This document shows positions 1 to 32,265 of a stretch of DNA of 36,230 nt, one piece after another. Origin of the DNA: a virus. The translations under genes were made by a program, and so were the position numbers. The DNA is taken from positions 1 to 36,230 of the IMG/VR virus record IMGVR_UViG_3300031787_000406; one strand, given 5' to 3'. Below the pieces are notes generated by a model. That model was not told where the DNA came from and made no database searches. It saw only the letters and a list, made by a program, of their open reading frames with translations. Each line of letters begins with the position of its first letter. Positions within the stretch are counted from its first letter, which is position 1.

Positions 1-41
1 TGTGATGCTTCATAAACCATTAACAAAGAACAATGGATTGT

Positions 42-108
42 GTCGAGAGGTGTCATTCATGTAGTGTGCGTTTATTCCCCGAAGGTATTGTATTCACGCA
101 CTCTCGAC
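42..108. repeat. Inverted repeat at left edge
   Basis: GTCGAGAG at 42-49 is matched by CTCTCGAC at 101-108, with an inner GTGCG/CGCAC pair, so the stretch could fold as a long stem-loop. It lies downstream of the leftmost minus-strand gene (116-391) and may end that transcript, but there is no U-tract. No convincing gene is seen in 1-115. Confidence 0.4.
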
Positions 109-12188: not shown

Positions 12189-12476
12189 ATGTTCCCACTT
12201 ACGGATCAAGAGAAAGAAGAAACGCAACGCGATCTGGTGGCACTACTGGAATCGCTGAACAGCTCGGCCGAACTGCTGTCAGAATTTATTGAAGCCCTCC
12301 GCAATCGCGCAATTGGACTTGACAAGGAAACAGAGCAAGCACTGCGTAAGCCAATTAACAGAATTGGTTCCCTTGGCTTTCAATTAAACCTAACCCAGTA
12401 CAAGGCACGAAACTTCAAGGAACGGCAATTCACAATGGAAGTCCAGGGGATCGAACCCTGCTCAGGCGAATTATGA
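12189..12476 (+). CDS. Hypothetical helical protein overlapping a tRNA (95 aa)
   Basis: Plus-strand frame starting MFPLTDQEKEETQRDLVALL, with helical heptad-like repeats (LLESLNSSAELLSEFIEAL) and a Lys/Arg-rich end. Its last 13 codons run antisense through the tRNA at 12436-12508, so the C-terminus MEVQGIEPCSGEL is tRNA-derived. Either the tRNA was inserted into the gene end or the frame is partly spurious. Divergent from the gene at 11475-12017 and 171 bp away. No Shine-Dalgarno seen. Confidence 0.5.
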   Translation: MFPLTDQEKEETQRDLVALLESLNSSAELLSEFIEALRNRAIGLDKETEQALRKPINRIGSLGFQLNLTQYKARNFKERQFTMEVQGIEPCSGEL

Positions 12477-12508
12477 GTTCGCTGCATTCACCAGATTGCT
12501 AGACTTCC
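12436..12508 (-). tRNA. tRNA-Met or tRNA-Ile2 (anticodon CAT)
   Basis: A full 73-nt cloverleaf reads on the minus strand: acceptor GGAAGTC/GACTTCC, D-arm with GG in the loop, anticodon arm GCGAA-CTCATAA-TTCGC (anticodon CAT), variable CTGAG, T-arm CAGGG-TTCGATC-CCCTG, discriminator A. CCA is not encoded. The anticodon fits methionine or, if C34 is modified to lysidine, isoleucine AUA. Likely compensates codon supply during infection. Confidence 0.92.
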
Positions 12509-16544: not shown

Positions 16545-16780
16545 GCCACCCTCCTGCCGCGATAAGGGCTGCAAGTGCCGTAGCCGTAGCCGTAGCCGTT
16601 GCCGTTGCCGTAGCCGTAGCCGTGGCCGTTGCCGTAGCCGGAGCCGTAGCCGTTGCCGTTGCCGTTGCCGTAGCTGTAGCCGTCGCCGTAGCCGGAGCCG
16701 CTGCCGTAGCCGGAGCCGTAGCCGTAGCCGTGGCCGTTGCCGGAGCCGTAGCCGTGGCCGTCGCCGATTGGCCCAAACAT
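16541..16780 (-). CDS. Gly-X dipeptide-repeat protein (79 aa)
   Basis: Starts MFGPIGDGHGYGSG and continues as about 31 Gly-X dipeptides with X = Tyr, Asn, His, Ser or Asp, then ends TCSPYRGRRVA. The third bases are all C (GGCNNC), with variation confined to the first two bases of the X codon. The frame is chosen because its ATG overlaps the upstream stop (TGATG) and because the other frames give improbable Ala-Thr or Arg-Leu repeats. Likely disordered or beta-loop; could be a surface or condensate-forming protein. No function known. Confidence 0.6.
   Translation of the reverse strand: MFGPIGDGHGYGSGNGHGYGYGSGYGSGSGYGDGYSYGNGNGNGYGSGYGNGHGYGYGNGNGYGYGYGTCSPYRGRRVA
16577..16765 (-). repeat. 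GGCNNC hexanucleotide repeat tract
   Basis: About 31 consecutive 6-bp units GGC(TAC/AAC/CAC/TCC/AGC/GAC) encode the Gly-X repeat. One unit is altered (GGC to AGC), giving SYG. This is a coding minisatellite likely to vary in copy number by slippage. Confidence 0.9.
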
Positions 16781-20361: not shown

Positions 20362-20796
20362 TCAAGCAATGTCAGACAGATCGGGTGGCTGATAATTTGG
20401 GCCTTTCATGACCTTGCCCTTCTCGTTATAGATCGGCTTCCCATTTTCGTCAAGCTTGCTCATATTTGACGTGAACACTCGATCCATCGCTTCGTCAAGA
20501 TTCATGCCAAGATAGGCAGCAAGCTGGTAAATGACAAAAACACTATCTGCCATCTCCTTCAATAGCTCTTGCCTTGCTTTCTTGATCTCCTCAACCGTTG
20601 CATTGTCGTAATCAGTATGCTGAACGATTGTTTCAATTAGATCCCAGGCAGCACCATGTAACTCGCCAAACTCCTCGTCAATCAATGAAAGTTGAAATTC
20701 AACCTTTGGGCAATTCGGGATTTGTTCACGAGATTCGGATACCGGATGACCAAATGCAATGCGCCAATCAATCGCTTGCTGAATAAGACGTGACAT
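20362..20796 (-). CDS. mazG: MazG-like NTP pyrophosphohydrolase (144 aa)
   Basis: Alpha-helical all-alpha NTP pyrophosphatase of the MazG family: DEEFGELHGA (about residue 40) and LLKEMADSVFVIYQLAAY (about 80-97) supply the ExxE and ExxD metal-binding pairs, followed by the phage-type tail SNMSKLDENGKPIYNEKGK and GPNYQPPDLSD. Phage MazG may hydrolyse dNTPs or lower ppGpp; the true substrate is not shown by the sequence. It lies after the terminator at 20801-20830. Confidence 0.9.
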   Translation of the reverse strand: MSRLIQQAIDWRIAFGHPVSESREQIPNCPKVEFQLSLIDEEFGELHGAAWDLIETIVQHTDYDNATVEEIKKARQELLKEMADSVFVIYQLAAYLGMNLDEAMDRVFTSNMSKLDENGKPIYNEKGKVMKGPNYQPPDLSDIA

Positions 20797-20800
20797 CGTA

Positions 20801-20830
20801 GATAAAAGAAAAGCCCCGTTTTACCGGGGC
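20801..20830 (-). terminator. Intrinsic terminator after the cyAbrB-like gene
   Basis: GCCCCG (20830-20825 on minus) pairs with CGGGGC (20818-20813), loop GTAAAA, followed by TTTTCTTTT. It separates the regulator gene from mazG. Confidence 0.88.
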
Positions 20831-20851: not shown

Positions 20852-21397
20852 TCAAAGATCCAGGTCGTCCTGCTCGGCGTCCTCTTCACCTTCGGCGGGG
20901 ACGTAAGCGATGATGGTGATCTTGCCTTCAACAGCATCGACACGCACCTTGCTGCCAGGGGCAAAGGCAGCAACAGAGCTGTAGCGGTTGCCGACCACAA
21001 TGTTGCCGTTGCCGCCAACAGTCACCACGGGAGCGCGGTTGGTGCGACGGGAGTAGGCGCGGGTCGGGGGCGCAAACTCAACGCCCGACTGAGCCTTGAG
21101 CATGGCAGCCATGAAGTCACTGGTCAGGGTGACGGTGCGGCTTTCACCAGTTTCACGATTGGTGGTTTCGCGCCAGTAACCACATTCCTTGGCAACCTCG
21201 TCAATGGGCTTGCCGGCCATGGAAGCGCTCTTTTCGAGCAGTGCCTTGCCTTGAAGTTGCTCGCCCTTGACGATGATGTTCTTGGTTTCCTTGGTTTCGG
21301 GGGCGGCGGGAGCTTGAGTCACGGTTTCGGTTTCGGTTTGGGATGGGACTTGGACTTGAGACTCGCTGGGCGAGGTCTCGGTTCTACGTCGTGGCAC
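20852..21397 (-). CDS. cyAbrB-like transcription regulator (about 181 aa)
   Basis: The second half follows the cyanobacterial AbrB layout: LQGKALLEKSASMAGKPIDE, AKECGYWRETTN, LTSDFMAAMLKAQSGVEF, RRTNRAPVVTVGGNGNIVVG and APGSKVRVDAVEGKI. This has the GKxLLEKxxEL...CGY...FYxALLEA...NGNxVIG...GD-F order known from cyAbrB proteins, where the last part is the AbrB-type DNA-binding region. Residues 1-55 are a Ser/Thr/Glu-rich unique extension; the tail is acidic (EGEEDAEQDDLDL). The GTG at 21397 is chosen because it follows the promoter at 21424-21452. In hosts these proteins control carbon/nitrogen genes. Function in the phage is inference. Confidence 0.72.
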   Translation of the reverse strand: MPRRRTETSPSESQVQVPSQTETETVTQAPAAPETKETKNIIVKGEQLQGKALLEKSASMAGKPIDEVAKECGYWRETTNRETGESRTVTLTSDFMAAMLKAQSGVEFAPPTRAYSRRTNRAPVVTVGGNGNIVVGNRYSSVAAFAPGSKVRVDAVEGKITIIAYVPAEGEEDAEQDDLDL

Positions 21398-21423: not shown

Positions 21424-21452
21424 ATGGTAGCACCACGATCGGGAACGTGCAA
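21424..21452 (-). promoter_or_regulatory. Promoter for the cyAbrB-like gene
   Basis: TTGCAC (21452-21447), 17-bp spacer ending TGC, TACCAT (21429-21424). The TGCTACCAT extended -10 is the same as in the promoter at 25392-25420. Lies between RusA and the regulator. Confidence 0.6.
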
Positions 21453-21465
21453 GCATCCGAACGGA

Positions 21466-21885
21466 CTATTTCTGTGGTGGCCACCAGGGACGCAGATAAA
21501 GGAATGTCACAGGCTCTGGAGACGGCTGCCAGTAGCTGATGTGCAGGGGCAGGCGCGAGCAACGGTCATCGCGCATCACGCCAGCTTTCACGGCAGCGTC
21601 AAGCACAGCACCTTCCAGGTTGTCAACGTCTGATCTTGCATGTCCGTGGAACTCGATCGAGAACAAGGCGTGTTCCAGGGGCTCCCTGCCTCCCCACTGG
21701 TCCGCCAGAGACTCCCTGGCGTCACTCAGCCACTGGCGGTAGCGAGGAGAGGTGAAGCTCCTCCCACGACCCTGCCTGGGCCTCTCCTTCGGCTGCAGTG
21801 GAAGCCCAAGGCGCAAGGTCTCCCAGCTCGTCGTCCCATTCGGCCCCGGCTGATTCAGGATCCAGATCAGATACTCCGGCCCCAT
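21466..21885 (-). CDS. rusA: RusA-like Holliday-junction resolvase
   Basis: LPLQPKERPRQGRGRSFTS and SPRYRQWLSDARESL give the RPR-containing lead strand of RusA, then HARSDVDNLEGAVLDAAVKA contains the catalytic aspartates (D-x-D-N) and GVMRDD the third metal ligand. RusA dimers cut Holliday junctions. The start is unclear: 21885, 21924 or a TTG at 21816 (with GGGAG three bases before) are possible, all overlapping the preceding gene by about 95-200 bp. Acts with ERF and the nuclease in recombination. Confidence 0.78.
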   Translation of the reverse strand: MGPEYLIWILNQPGPNGTTSWETLRLGLPLQPKERPRQGRGRSFTSPRYRQWLSDARESLADQWGGREPLEHALFSIEFHGHARSDVDNLEGAVLDAAVKAGVMRDDRCSRLPLHISYWQPSPEPVTFLYLRPWWPPQK

Positions 21886-22594
21886 CCCGCCCGGTATCAA
21901 GGGACGCATTCTTGCAGCATTCAAGCAATCTATAGATTAGCACCCTCGTCTTGCCTTTCCCCAGTCTTTCAAATAAAATATCCGCCATCTCATGTACTTG
22001 ATGGTTGGTTGGATTGCGAAATATCTTAATTGGTTTCAGGACTCGCTTCTTTTCTGCAAACCCTTCCTCAAAGTAGCATTGCTCTATATTTGCATACTTT
22101 CTGCCAGCACCAATTTGCTGCAGCAGCTCTGGATGATTCTGATAAATAAACCTTGCAACACCAAATAGCCACATTTTTTTGCGGCTATTGATGTTTCTTT
22201 TTTTTGCGATTGACTTGGCAAGTCGTCTGTATTGAAATAATTCTTCCGGGAACTCAAAGCAAGGATCTTGCGTCCTTAGCCAATCAATAAATTGATAGCC
22301 ATACCGATTGCTATTGTTTTCCTTGTATGCTGCTTGTGAAACTGCACAAAGAAAAGTGCTAAGATCCTTGACGCCAAGACCGTAATGAACATTGTGTATA
22401 AAATCTTTAATGCCGCGTAGTTTGGCTGGTTTGTTCTTTAGCGTCTTGTATCCAAGGTGAACCTCGGCCTCTGCAATGCGCAGCATGTCAGAGAAAAAAA
22501 TCTCTGAAGCCTGGCCAGCCATGACAGTTCCAAGGTGCAACCTTGCGCTTTCTACAAGCATTGCACCGTAAAACGGGTCGTCCTTACTTATCAT
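21722..22594 (-). CDS. Hypothetical protein (290 aa)
   Basis: Starts MISKDDPFYGAMLVESARLH and is helical through about 230 residues (GKTRVLIYRLLECCKNASL), then becomes acidic and alanine/proline-rich (AEWDDELGDLAPWASTAAEG). The first part contains HLGYKTLKNKPAKLRGIKDF, NVHYGLGVKDL and basic clusters (KSIAKKRNINSRKKMWLF), suggestive of nucleic-acid binding. Its ATG overlaps the dNMP kinase stop. The C-terminus overlaps RusA by up to 200 bp. Not assigned to a family. Confidence 0.7.
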   Translation of the reverse strand: MISKDDPFYGAMLVESARLHLGTVMAGQASEIFFSDMLRIAEAEVHLGYKTLKNKPAKLRGIKDFIHNVHYGLGVKDLSTFLCAVSQAAYKENNSNRYGYQFIDWLRTQDPCFEFPEELFQYRRLAKSIAKKRNINSRKKMWLFGVARFIYQNHPELLQQIGAGRKYANIEQCYFEEGFAEKKRVLKPIKIFRNPTNHQVHEMADILFERLGKGKTRVLIYRLLECCKNASLDTGRDGAGVSDLDPESAGAEWDDELGDLAPWASTAAEGEAQAGSWEELHLSSLPPVAE

Positions 22595-30730: not shown

Positions 30731-31342
30731 ATGCTCAAGAACGACAACTGGATCCGTCACCAGGCTTCAAATGGAATGATCGAGCCGTTTACTGGTTCGC
30801 TTGTTCGTGAACTTGTCTGGACTGACGAGCAGTCACAGTATTTTACAGAAAAGGTGTTGAGTTACGGAACAAGTAGCTATGGCTATGACCTACGGCTTTC
30901 ACCAAAGGAGTTCCTGATTTTCAAGCACGTTCCAGGAACTGTCATGAATCCCAAGCGGTTTAATCCAGCAGCAAATCTTGAGTCCGTTGAACTACAGGAA
31001 GATGAAGATGGTTTGTTTTTCATCCTTCCAGCGCATTCATACGGCTTGGGTGTTGCACTTGAGCGTCTTCGTGTCCCAAGGAACATTACTTGCATCTGTC
31101 TTGGTAAGAGCACTTATGCAAGAATGGGCATTATTGTCAACGCAACTCCAGCGGAAAGCGAATGGGAGGGGCATCTGACACTGGAATTCAGTAATTCAAG
31201 TGGTGCAGATTGCCGCCTTTATGCAAATGAGGGCATCTGTCAGATCCTGTTCTTTGAAGGCGAGGAGTGTTCGACCAGTTACCAAAATCGTTTCGGGAAA
31301 TATCAAGGGCAGCCTGAGCGGGTTGTTCCGGCTCGGATTTAA
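30731..31342 (+). CDS. dcd: dCTP deaminase-like protein (203 aa)
   Basis: The motif GKSTYARMGIIVNATPAE, then WEGHLTLEFSNSSGADCRLY and ANEGICQILFFEGEE, with RFGKYQGQPERV at the end, is that of the dCTP deaminase / dUTPase superfamily (GKSSLARxG...TLEfxN...GxxIxQxxF). It deaminates dCTP to dUTP, the precursor of dUMP for ThyX. The catalytic Glu lies in TLEFSN. Slightly long for the family (usual 170-195) with a unique N-terminal segment. Upstream of the sigma-factor gene in the same orientation. Confidence 0.93.
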   Translation: MLKNDNWIRHQASNGMIEPFTGSLVRELVWTDEQSQYFTEKVLSYGTSSYGYDLRLSPKEFLIFKHVPGTVMNPKRFNPAANLESVELQEDEDGLFFILPAHSYGLGVALERLRVPRNITCICLGKSTYARMGIIVNATPAESEWEGHLTLEFSNSSGADCRLYANEGICQILFFEGEECSTSYQNRFGKYQGQPERVVPARI

Positions 31343-31395: not shown

Positions 31396-32265
31396 ATGAG
31401 CCTCAGTGACTACCTCAATGCCGTGGGCAAAGTCCCACTGCTCACGGCGCAGGAGGAGATCATCCTCGGAACACAGGTCCAACGGATGATGAAGATTCTT
31501 GCAGACAAGCAGGAATCTGAATTAACAGAGGAGGAGAGAAAGCATGTACGAGTTGGCCGCAGGGCCAAGAATCGTATGGTTTCTGCAAACCTGAGGCTTG
31601 TTGTCAATGTGGCCAAGAAATTTAGACCACAGGCTCACATGAAAATGGAAGATATTTTGCAGGAGGGCAGCATTGGGTTGATGCGTGCCGTCGAGAAGTT
31701 TGACCCAGAGCGCGGATACAAGTTTAGTACATACGCTTACTGGTGGATAAGACAGGGAATAACAAGGGCGGGAGAAAATCAAGAAGCAGAAATCAGAGTT
31801 CCAGCTCACCTGCAACGAATCGCCAAGCAAGCGGCAGACGCCAGATCAAAGCTTTTATCCAAAAACGGTAGGCAGCCAACTGTAAAAGAAGTTGCACTTG
31901 CTATCAACGAGCCAGACCCCAAAAAGATTGAGTACGCAATTGCGCATCAGGTTTATACGTTCTCCCTTGACATCTCGCTGCTAGATGGTGACAAGAGTCC
32001 ATTGCTGGACATCATGAACTGTGATGACGAAAGCGAGATAGAGGACAATGAAAACAATAAAATGAAAATGGACTTATTGATGCTGGCAATCAATGCCCTT
32101 GATCCAGTAGACGGAAGCATGATCAAAAAAAGATATGGAGTTAACTGTGAACCCCATACAATCAAGCAACTATCGGCAGAGTTTAATCTTTCGCCTCAGG
32201 CGATCAGGGACAGAATCAACAAAGCGATGAACAGGATCAGGATTGTTGTCAGCCAGTTTGTTTAG
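31396..32265 (+). CDS. Sigma factor, RpoD/group 2-like (289 aa)
   Basis: Region 1.2 (SLSDYLNAVGKVPLLTAQEE), region 2 (MVSANLRLVVNVAKKFRPQA, MEDILQEGSIGLMRAVEKFD, GYKFSTYAYWWIRQGIT), region 3 (VPAHLQRIAKQAADARSKLL) and region 4 (TIKQLSAEFNLSPQAIRDRI, NKAMNRIR) are present in order; region 1.1 is absent. Region 2.4 keeps the YWWIRQ core that reads the -10. In region 4.2 the residues aligned with the sigma-70 -35 readers R584, E585, R588 and Q589 are P, Q, R and D, so -35 recognition is likely altered. It would redirect host RNA polymerase to phage promoters. Stops overlap the convergent peptidase by 4 bp. Confidence 0.93.
   Translation: MSLSDYLNAVGKVPLLTAQEEIILGTQVQRMMKILADKQESELTEEERKHVRVGRRAKNRMVSANLRLVVNVAKKFRPQAHMKMEDILQEGSIGLMRAVEKFDPERGYKFSTYAYWWIRQGITRAGENQEAEIRVPAHLQRIAKQAADARSKLLSKNGRQPTVKEVALAINEPDPKKIEYAIAHQVYTFSLDISLLDGDKSPLLDIMNCDDESEIEDNENNKMKMDLLMLAINALDPVDGSMIKKRYGVNCEPHTIKQLSAEFNLSPQAIRDRINKAMNRIRIVVSQFV

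Follow-up and report, generated by a model that had tools for sequence, protein, structure and literature searches.

A phage-specific relative of cyAbrB in the replication module of a probable picocyanobacterial siphophage group

The window analysed here is a 36,230-base virus record, and one gene on its minus strand (Table 1) encodes a relative of the cyanobacterial nucleoid protein cyAbrB. This gene is a fixed member of the phage replication module. Because its product scores below the Pfam cut-off and falls outside the cellular clade, we consider it best labelled as belonging to a phage-specific sister clade of cyAbrB, not as a strict Pfam member. The two-domain homology, the conserved transcription unit, the fixed gene order and the phage-only invariant residues are computed from the sequences. 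Our favoured explanation, which we hold with moderate confidence, is that the protein would act as a phage-specific nucleoid-type DNA binder that orders phage transcription, most likely in picocyanobacteria.

Table 1. Positions in the window of the cyAbrB-type gene, the predicted parts of its product, its putative transcription signals and related genes
Feature	Position	Strand	Details or basis
Phage cyAbrB-type gene	20852..21397	minus	181 aa, GTG start at 21397, stop 20852-20854 included
Short basic start (VPRRR) and Ser/Thr-rich, predicted disordered extension, residues 1-44	21266..21397	minus	pLDDT, composition
cyAbrB-type N-domain, residues 45-110, predicted helix-helix-strand-strand-helix	21068..21265	minus	N-domain profile, hhalign, model
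Cys72 of the CGY motif	21182..21184	minus	same position as C34, the redox cysteine of CyAbrB2
Predicted AbrB-type swapped-hairpin DNA-binding domain, residues 111-165	20903..21067	minus	Foldseek; net charge +6; R113, R118, R121, R138
Acidic tail ending DDLDL, residues 166-181	20855..20902	minus	end motif in phage orthologs
Putative promoter: -35 TTGCAC (21452-21447), 17 nt, -10 TACCAT (21429-21424)	21424..21452	minus	element conserved in orthologs
Putative intrinsic terminator, stem-loop then T tract	20813..20830	minus	GCCCCG-GTAAAA-CGGGGC-TTTTCTTTTA
RusA-like Holliday junction resolvase, directly upstream	21466..21924	minus	PHROG matches
Conserved protein of unknown function, constant upstream neighbour	21722..22594	minus	synteny
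MazG-like nucleotide pyrophosphohydrolase, constant downstream neighbour	20362..20796	minus	match and synteny
Phage sigma-70 factor, possible partner	31396..32265	plus	nearest cyanophages S-CBS3, KBS-S-2A, S-CBS1

Family assignment and predicted fold

A longer ORF of 236 residues was ruled out as the coding sequence: the orthologs start at the position of the GTG codon with M[AP]R[RK]K, a motif kept in the phage orthologs, and we therefore take the GTG to be the right start. The Pfam AbrB-like family (PF14250) matches residues 94-156 of the resulting protein with E = 9.1e-5 and 22.9 bits, below the curated cut-off of 25. A full-length cyAbrB profile built from 50 cellular proteins gives the window protein 65.7 bits, and the same profile matches all 25 non-redundant phage orthologs, among which the window protein scores best. 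Profile-profile comparison of phage and cellular cyAbrB with hhalign returned 99.6% (E 1.2e-24) with both domains covered. The full-length profile and the hhalign result rule out a chance AbrB match and bear out the preliminary description, which had proposed a cyAbrB-type protein with its core kept; the profile search that it had set as its refuting test places the protein among AbrB-like proteins. The likeness also reaches outside the AbrB fold, into an N-domain common to phage and cellular cyAbrB. A profile of the phage N-domain by itself recovered all 121 cyAbrB ORFs among 1,484 ORFs and zero others, and hhalign of this domain gave 98.5%, against at most 1.8% for column-shuffled controls.

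Genome counts agree with the earlier statement that the family is nearly restricted to cyanobacteria. PF14250 was found in 89 of 194 Cyanobacteriota genomes and in 1 of 14 control genomes (Synechococcus elongatus), and all 80 loci kept from a genome search with the window protein and four plasmid cyAbrB proteins, filtered by a pattern that contained the CGY motif, belonged to Cyanobacteriota. In cyanobacterial genomes of about 2.1-3.3 Mb, 4-7 cyAbrB-type genes are often present, against two in most larger ones.

AlphaFold2 gave a model of moderate quality for the single chain (pLDDT 70, pTM 0.42), with both ends disordered. The long Ser/Thr-rich N-terminal extension and the acidic tail noted previously are both evident: serine and threonine make up 27% of residues 1-44, within which residues 6-37 are predicted to be disordered (pLDDT <50), and aspartate and glutamate make up 53% of the last 15 residues. 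When the C-domain model was compared with the PDB by Foldseek, the probabilities were 0.99 and 0.97 for AbrB, 0.96 for SpoVT and 0.69 for MazE, with weak E-values of at least 0.18; the comparison of the window model with the PDB produced zero matches at E ≤0.001. By these probabilities, taken with their weak E-values, the domain matches the beta-beta-alpha-beta-beta half-barrel of the AbrB/SpoVT/MazE swapped-hairpin superfamily. The best viral fold match (BFVD, E 6e-6) is BAQ94494.1, the annotated AbrB regulator of a marine podovirus. The window protein matched no Lsr2 or H-NS fold in Pfam or in Foldseek against the PDB. Membership of the SymE or MazE families was rejected, since neither the SymE toxin (PF08845) nor MazE matched the window protein at E ≤1.

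A separate phage clade in a constant gene neighbourhood

Relatives were reached via the major head protein. Nine of the 43 records obtained in this way had an ortholog, with 36-46% identity, and an alignment of these nine orthologs found at least 80 IMG/VR loci, the window's own phage among them. Viral scans seeded with a single protein or with cyanobacterial sequences recovered only the same phage as the window. INPHARED returned no matches to the window protein and three relatives; searched with a picocyanobacteria-type sequence, it returned the phage MedDCM-OCT-S39-C11 at E 0.09.

In an unrooted tree of 75 rows and 140 columns (25 phage rows and 50 cellular rows, the latter picked by similarity to the window protein), the phage proteins make up one side of a single branch, with support of 100/100; given the few columns and the lack of a root, it is in this limited sense that they fall outside the cellular cyAbrB clade. 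Recent capture of a host gene is rejected on the basis of this separate clade. None of the 386 Cyanobacteriota genomes sampled held a member of the phage clade (the best match reached only E 2.8e-12), which indicates that the protein serves the phage. Its constant position across a whole group of phages makes the gene look like a long-established functional component of the virus, as opposed to a host gene acquired of late.

Several positions set the phage proteins apart. In all 37 phage proteins, positions 113 and 138 are arginine (R113, R138), which is not the commonest residue at these positions in cyanobacteria, while R118 and R121 are common to the phage and cyanobacterial proteins. The C-terminal end [DE][LM]D[LFD], or a close variant, closes all 25 non-redundant phage orthologs (in one case as QMDL) and none of the 50 cellular proteins. 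The cysteine of the CGY motif is replaced by Ala or Thr in 24 of the 37 phage proteins and is retained in the window copy and its nearest phage relatives. It is kept in 28 of 28 cellular rows of one alignment, a count partly selected by the search pattern, and is also present in cellular rows fetched without that pattern. Judged by position only, Cys72 would correspond to residue C34 of CyAbrB2; glutathionylation of C34 disrupts the binding of DNA (PMC13421787). Within the cysteine-keeping subgroup, two successive ORFs match SSB where other members have SSB and a dNMP kinase.

Gene order is constant wherever it is visible among the loci, of which there are at least 80: SSB-(kinase)-conserved gene-(RusA)-cyAbrB-MazG. 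The fuller order runs DnaB, Erf, exonuclease, SSB, dNMP kinase, conserved protein, RusA (in some), cyAbrB and MazG, often followed by ThyX and a sigma factor; the sigma gene adjoins the module only in part of the group and is not adjacent to it in the window. When contigs were fetched by the conserved upstream neighbour, an approach chosen to avoid selecting on the cyAbrB gene itself, the gene was present in all 58 contigs with at least 1.5 kb downstream. Capsid relatives that lack the cyAbrB gene also lack this replication module and have other replication genes instead. The picture is thus not that of a lone auxiliary gene close to a host copy but that of a fixed replication-module gene from a separate, old clade. 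The conserved upstream neighbour itself lies invariably just upstream of the rusA or the cyAbrB gene, and its frame in the window overlaps rusA by about 200 bases; most relatives stop earlier.

The suggestion of a separate promoter and terminator for this gene is strengthened by comparison among orthologs. The window promoter sits inside the 68-base gap that follows rusA, and the element TTGC..-17 nt-TA...T occurs at a constant distance from the start in 21 of the 25 non-redundant orthologs, compared with 0.5% of shuffles and 1.1% of random 90-mers. Inspected by eye, two of the four exceptions carry the same element minus the leading C, and the start codon of the other two is probably mis-set. 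A consensus promoter scan of the window failed to detect this promoter because its sequence departs widely from the E. coli consensus. Of 61 distinct orthologs, all 61 have a terminator after the gene, against 0 of 61 shuffles. We thus read the promoter as a conserved, sigma-70-like element and the gene as a predicted transcription unit of its own. An arrangement with the cyAbrB gene as the tail of a rusA operon was considered and is overturned by the conservation of the promoter.

The phage and its probable host

A second record, IMGVR_UViG_3300042691_019356 (71,317 bases), carries the same gene, and the stretches compared are 99.97-100% identical to the window. A 33-base sequence is common to both ends of this record, and the window reads across the junction (window 1-70 and 38 onward); the genome, of about 71.3 kb, is thus probably either a complete circle or circularly permuted. 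The longer record encodes the large and small terminase, portal, scaffold, major head protein, head-tail adaptor, tape measure and endolysin, a gene set that marks the virus as a long-tailed phage. The 71-kb record yielded neither a tyrosine nor a serine recombinase, and the phage is therefore probably lytic.

Three genes show DNA identity to cyanobacterial genomes of about 1.6-3 Mb, a size in the picocyanobacterial range: the dCTP deaminase gene (30731-31342; 70-74% over about 390-450 bases), the sigma gene (70-72%) and tRNA-Met(cat) (12436-12508; 85-92%). The nearest phage matches of the sigma protein are those of the Synechococcus siphoviruses S-CBS3, KBS-S-2A and S-CBS1. The host markers psbA and nblA were absent from the relatives searched, which leaves gene similarity as the sole basis for assigning the host; on that basis this is most likely a siphophage group infecting picocyanobacteria, small freshwater cyanobacteria. 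The window also contains about 32 tandem copies of the six-base unit GCCGTA (16577-16766), an array that can be read without stops in several frames of either strand. Repeats of this kind give DNA matches in cyanobacterial genomes and were set aside for host inference.

Possible roles and comparison with known systems

Host cyAbrB2 is a nucleoid-associated repressor that covers AT-rich DNA and excludes SigA and SigE (PMC11368403). For the phage protein, we infer DNA binding, oligomerisation, targets, timing, autoregulation and host from the features described above. The C-terminal swapped-hairpin domain would dimerise and bind DNA broadly, and the N-domain would carry higher-order assembly as in host cyAbrB. 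During infection the protein would occupy phage promoters and so determine the sequence in which phage genes are transcribed, with the phage sigma factor as a probable partner and with probable feedback on its own promoter. In support of DNA binding, the C-domain is strongly basic, resembles AbrB, SpoVT and MazE, and has two extra invariant arginines in the phage clade.

The main competing explanation is that the phage protein antagonises host cyAbrB, through mixed oligomers or displacement, and thereby frees the AT-richer phage DNA; we regard this as a tentative possibility. The authors who described the binding of cyAbrB2 to AT-rich DNA and its exclusion of sigma factors proposed it as an H-NS-like defence against foreign DNA, comparable also to Lsr2 (PMC11368403), and the phage DNA has 46-54% G+C, compared with 55-67% at the loci of genomes with a match to its dCTP deaminase. 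The N-domain is retained, CyAbrB1 and CyAbrB2 are known to interact (PMC13421787), and the proteins of the 24 relatives (of 37) that have lost the redox cysteine would no longer respond to a host off-switch. The window copy keeps this cysteine, however, and the DNA-binding domain has been kept and is more basic, whereas a pure antagonist might lose such a domain. It seems rather unlikely to us that this is a widespread freshwater cyanophage lineage with a dedicated cyAbrB-derived counter-silencing nucleoid protein, part of it blind to the host redox switch.

Given its linkage to replication and recombination genes, the role could be architectural instead of transcriptional, in replication, recombination or packaging of phage DNA and with no part in regulation. 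The strict travel of the gene with Erf, exonuclease, SSB, dNMP kinase, RusA and MazG fits this idea, as does the absence of the gene from same-capsid relatives with other replication genes, but its own promoter and terminator set it apart from the operon, and we consider a purely architectural role improbable. A shift of the host's carbon and nitrogen state through host cyAbrB target genes has a precedent in the control of carbon, nitrogen, hydrogenase and atpT genes by host cyAbrB (PMC13421787). Yet no metabolic genes lie nearby, the linkage to replication genes is fixed, and the protein belongs to a separate old phage clade with phage-only residues; such an override is quite improbable, and regulation of phage genes fits the context better. 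That the protein is a SymE- or MazE-like component of a toxin-antitoxin system, built on the shared AbrB fold, is highly improbable. SymE_toxin does match seven of the nine orthologs (best E 1.2e-4) and MazE_antitoxin three, but the window protein itself matches neither, the N-domain is specific to cyAbrB, and the neighbours are RusA and MazG (which is not MazF), with no toxin partner recognised.

Among known proteins, cyAbrB1 and cyAbrB2 (PF14250; for example Sll0359 and Sll0822 of Synechocystis) share with the phage protein the CGY N-domain, the C-terminal AbrB-type domain and an acidic end, and with the window copy also the C34-type cysteine. The phage protein differs in its separate clade, its score below the Pfam cut-off, its fixed place in a phage replication module, its Ser/Thr-rich extension, its invariant R113 and R138 and its D-L-D-L-type end. 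BAQ94494.1, from the uncultured phage MedDCM-OCT-S39-C11 (AP013549.1, Autographiviridae, Krakvirus), is likewise phage-borne and gives a full cyAbrB-type match (40 bits), but it has 118 residues, lacks the extension and the D-L-D-L end, has AGY for CGY and lies among podovirus structural genes. This shorter protein of a marine T7-like phage (AP013549.1, 6878-7234) represents a second phage lineage with a cyAbrB-type protein. Bacillus AbrB and SpoVT, and MazE, have the swapped-hairpin domain in common with the phage protein but lack the cyAbrB N-domain and differ in domain order and context.

Host-type nucleoid proteins are already known from phages, namely Lsr2 in actinophages and H-NS in a few others (PMC8612146, PMC7074111). 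Phage Lsr2/CgpS and H-NS resemble the present case in being host-type nucleoid proteins with group-specific gene order; their folds are unrelated to that of the cyAbrB-type protein, so that the analogy is functional only. Temperate phages are enriched for Lsr2, which clusters inside bacterial clades, whereas the window phage has no recognised integrase and its protein forms a separate clade. Apart from one annotated marine fosmid phage gene, the full-text literature searched contained no account of a cyAbrB clade in phages. The gene offers a marker for an uncultured phage group present in many metagenomes. With a conserved phage clade beside replication genes, both the question of whether cyAbrB chromatin restrains phages and that of how phages answer it become directly testable. 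Should counter-silencing prove true, it would follow that cyanobacterial cyAbrB is a xenogeneic silencer directed at phage DNA.
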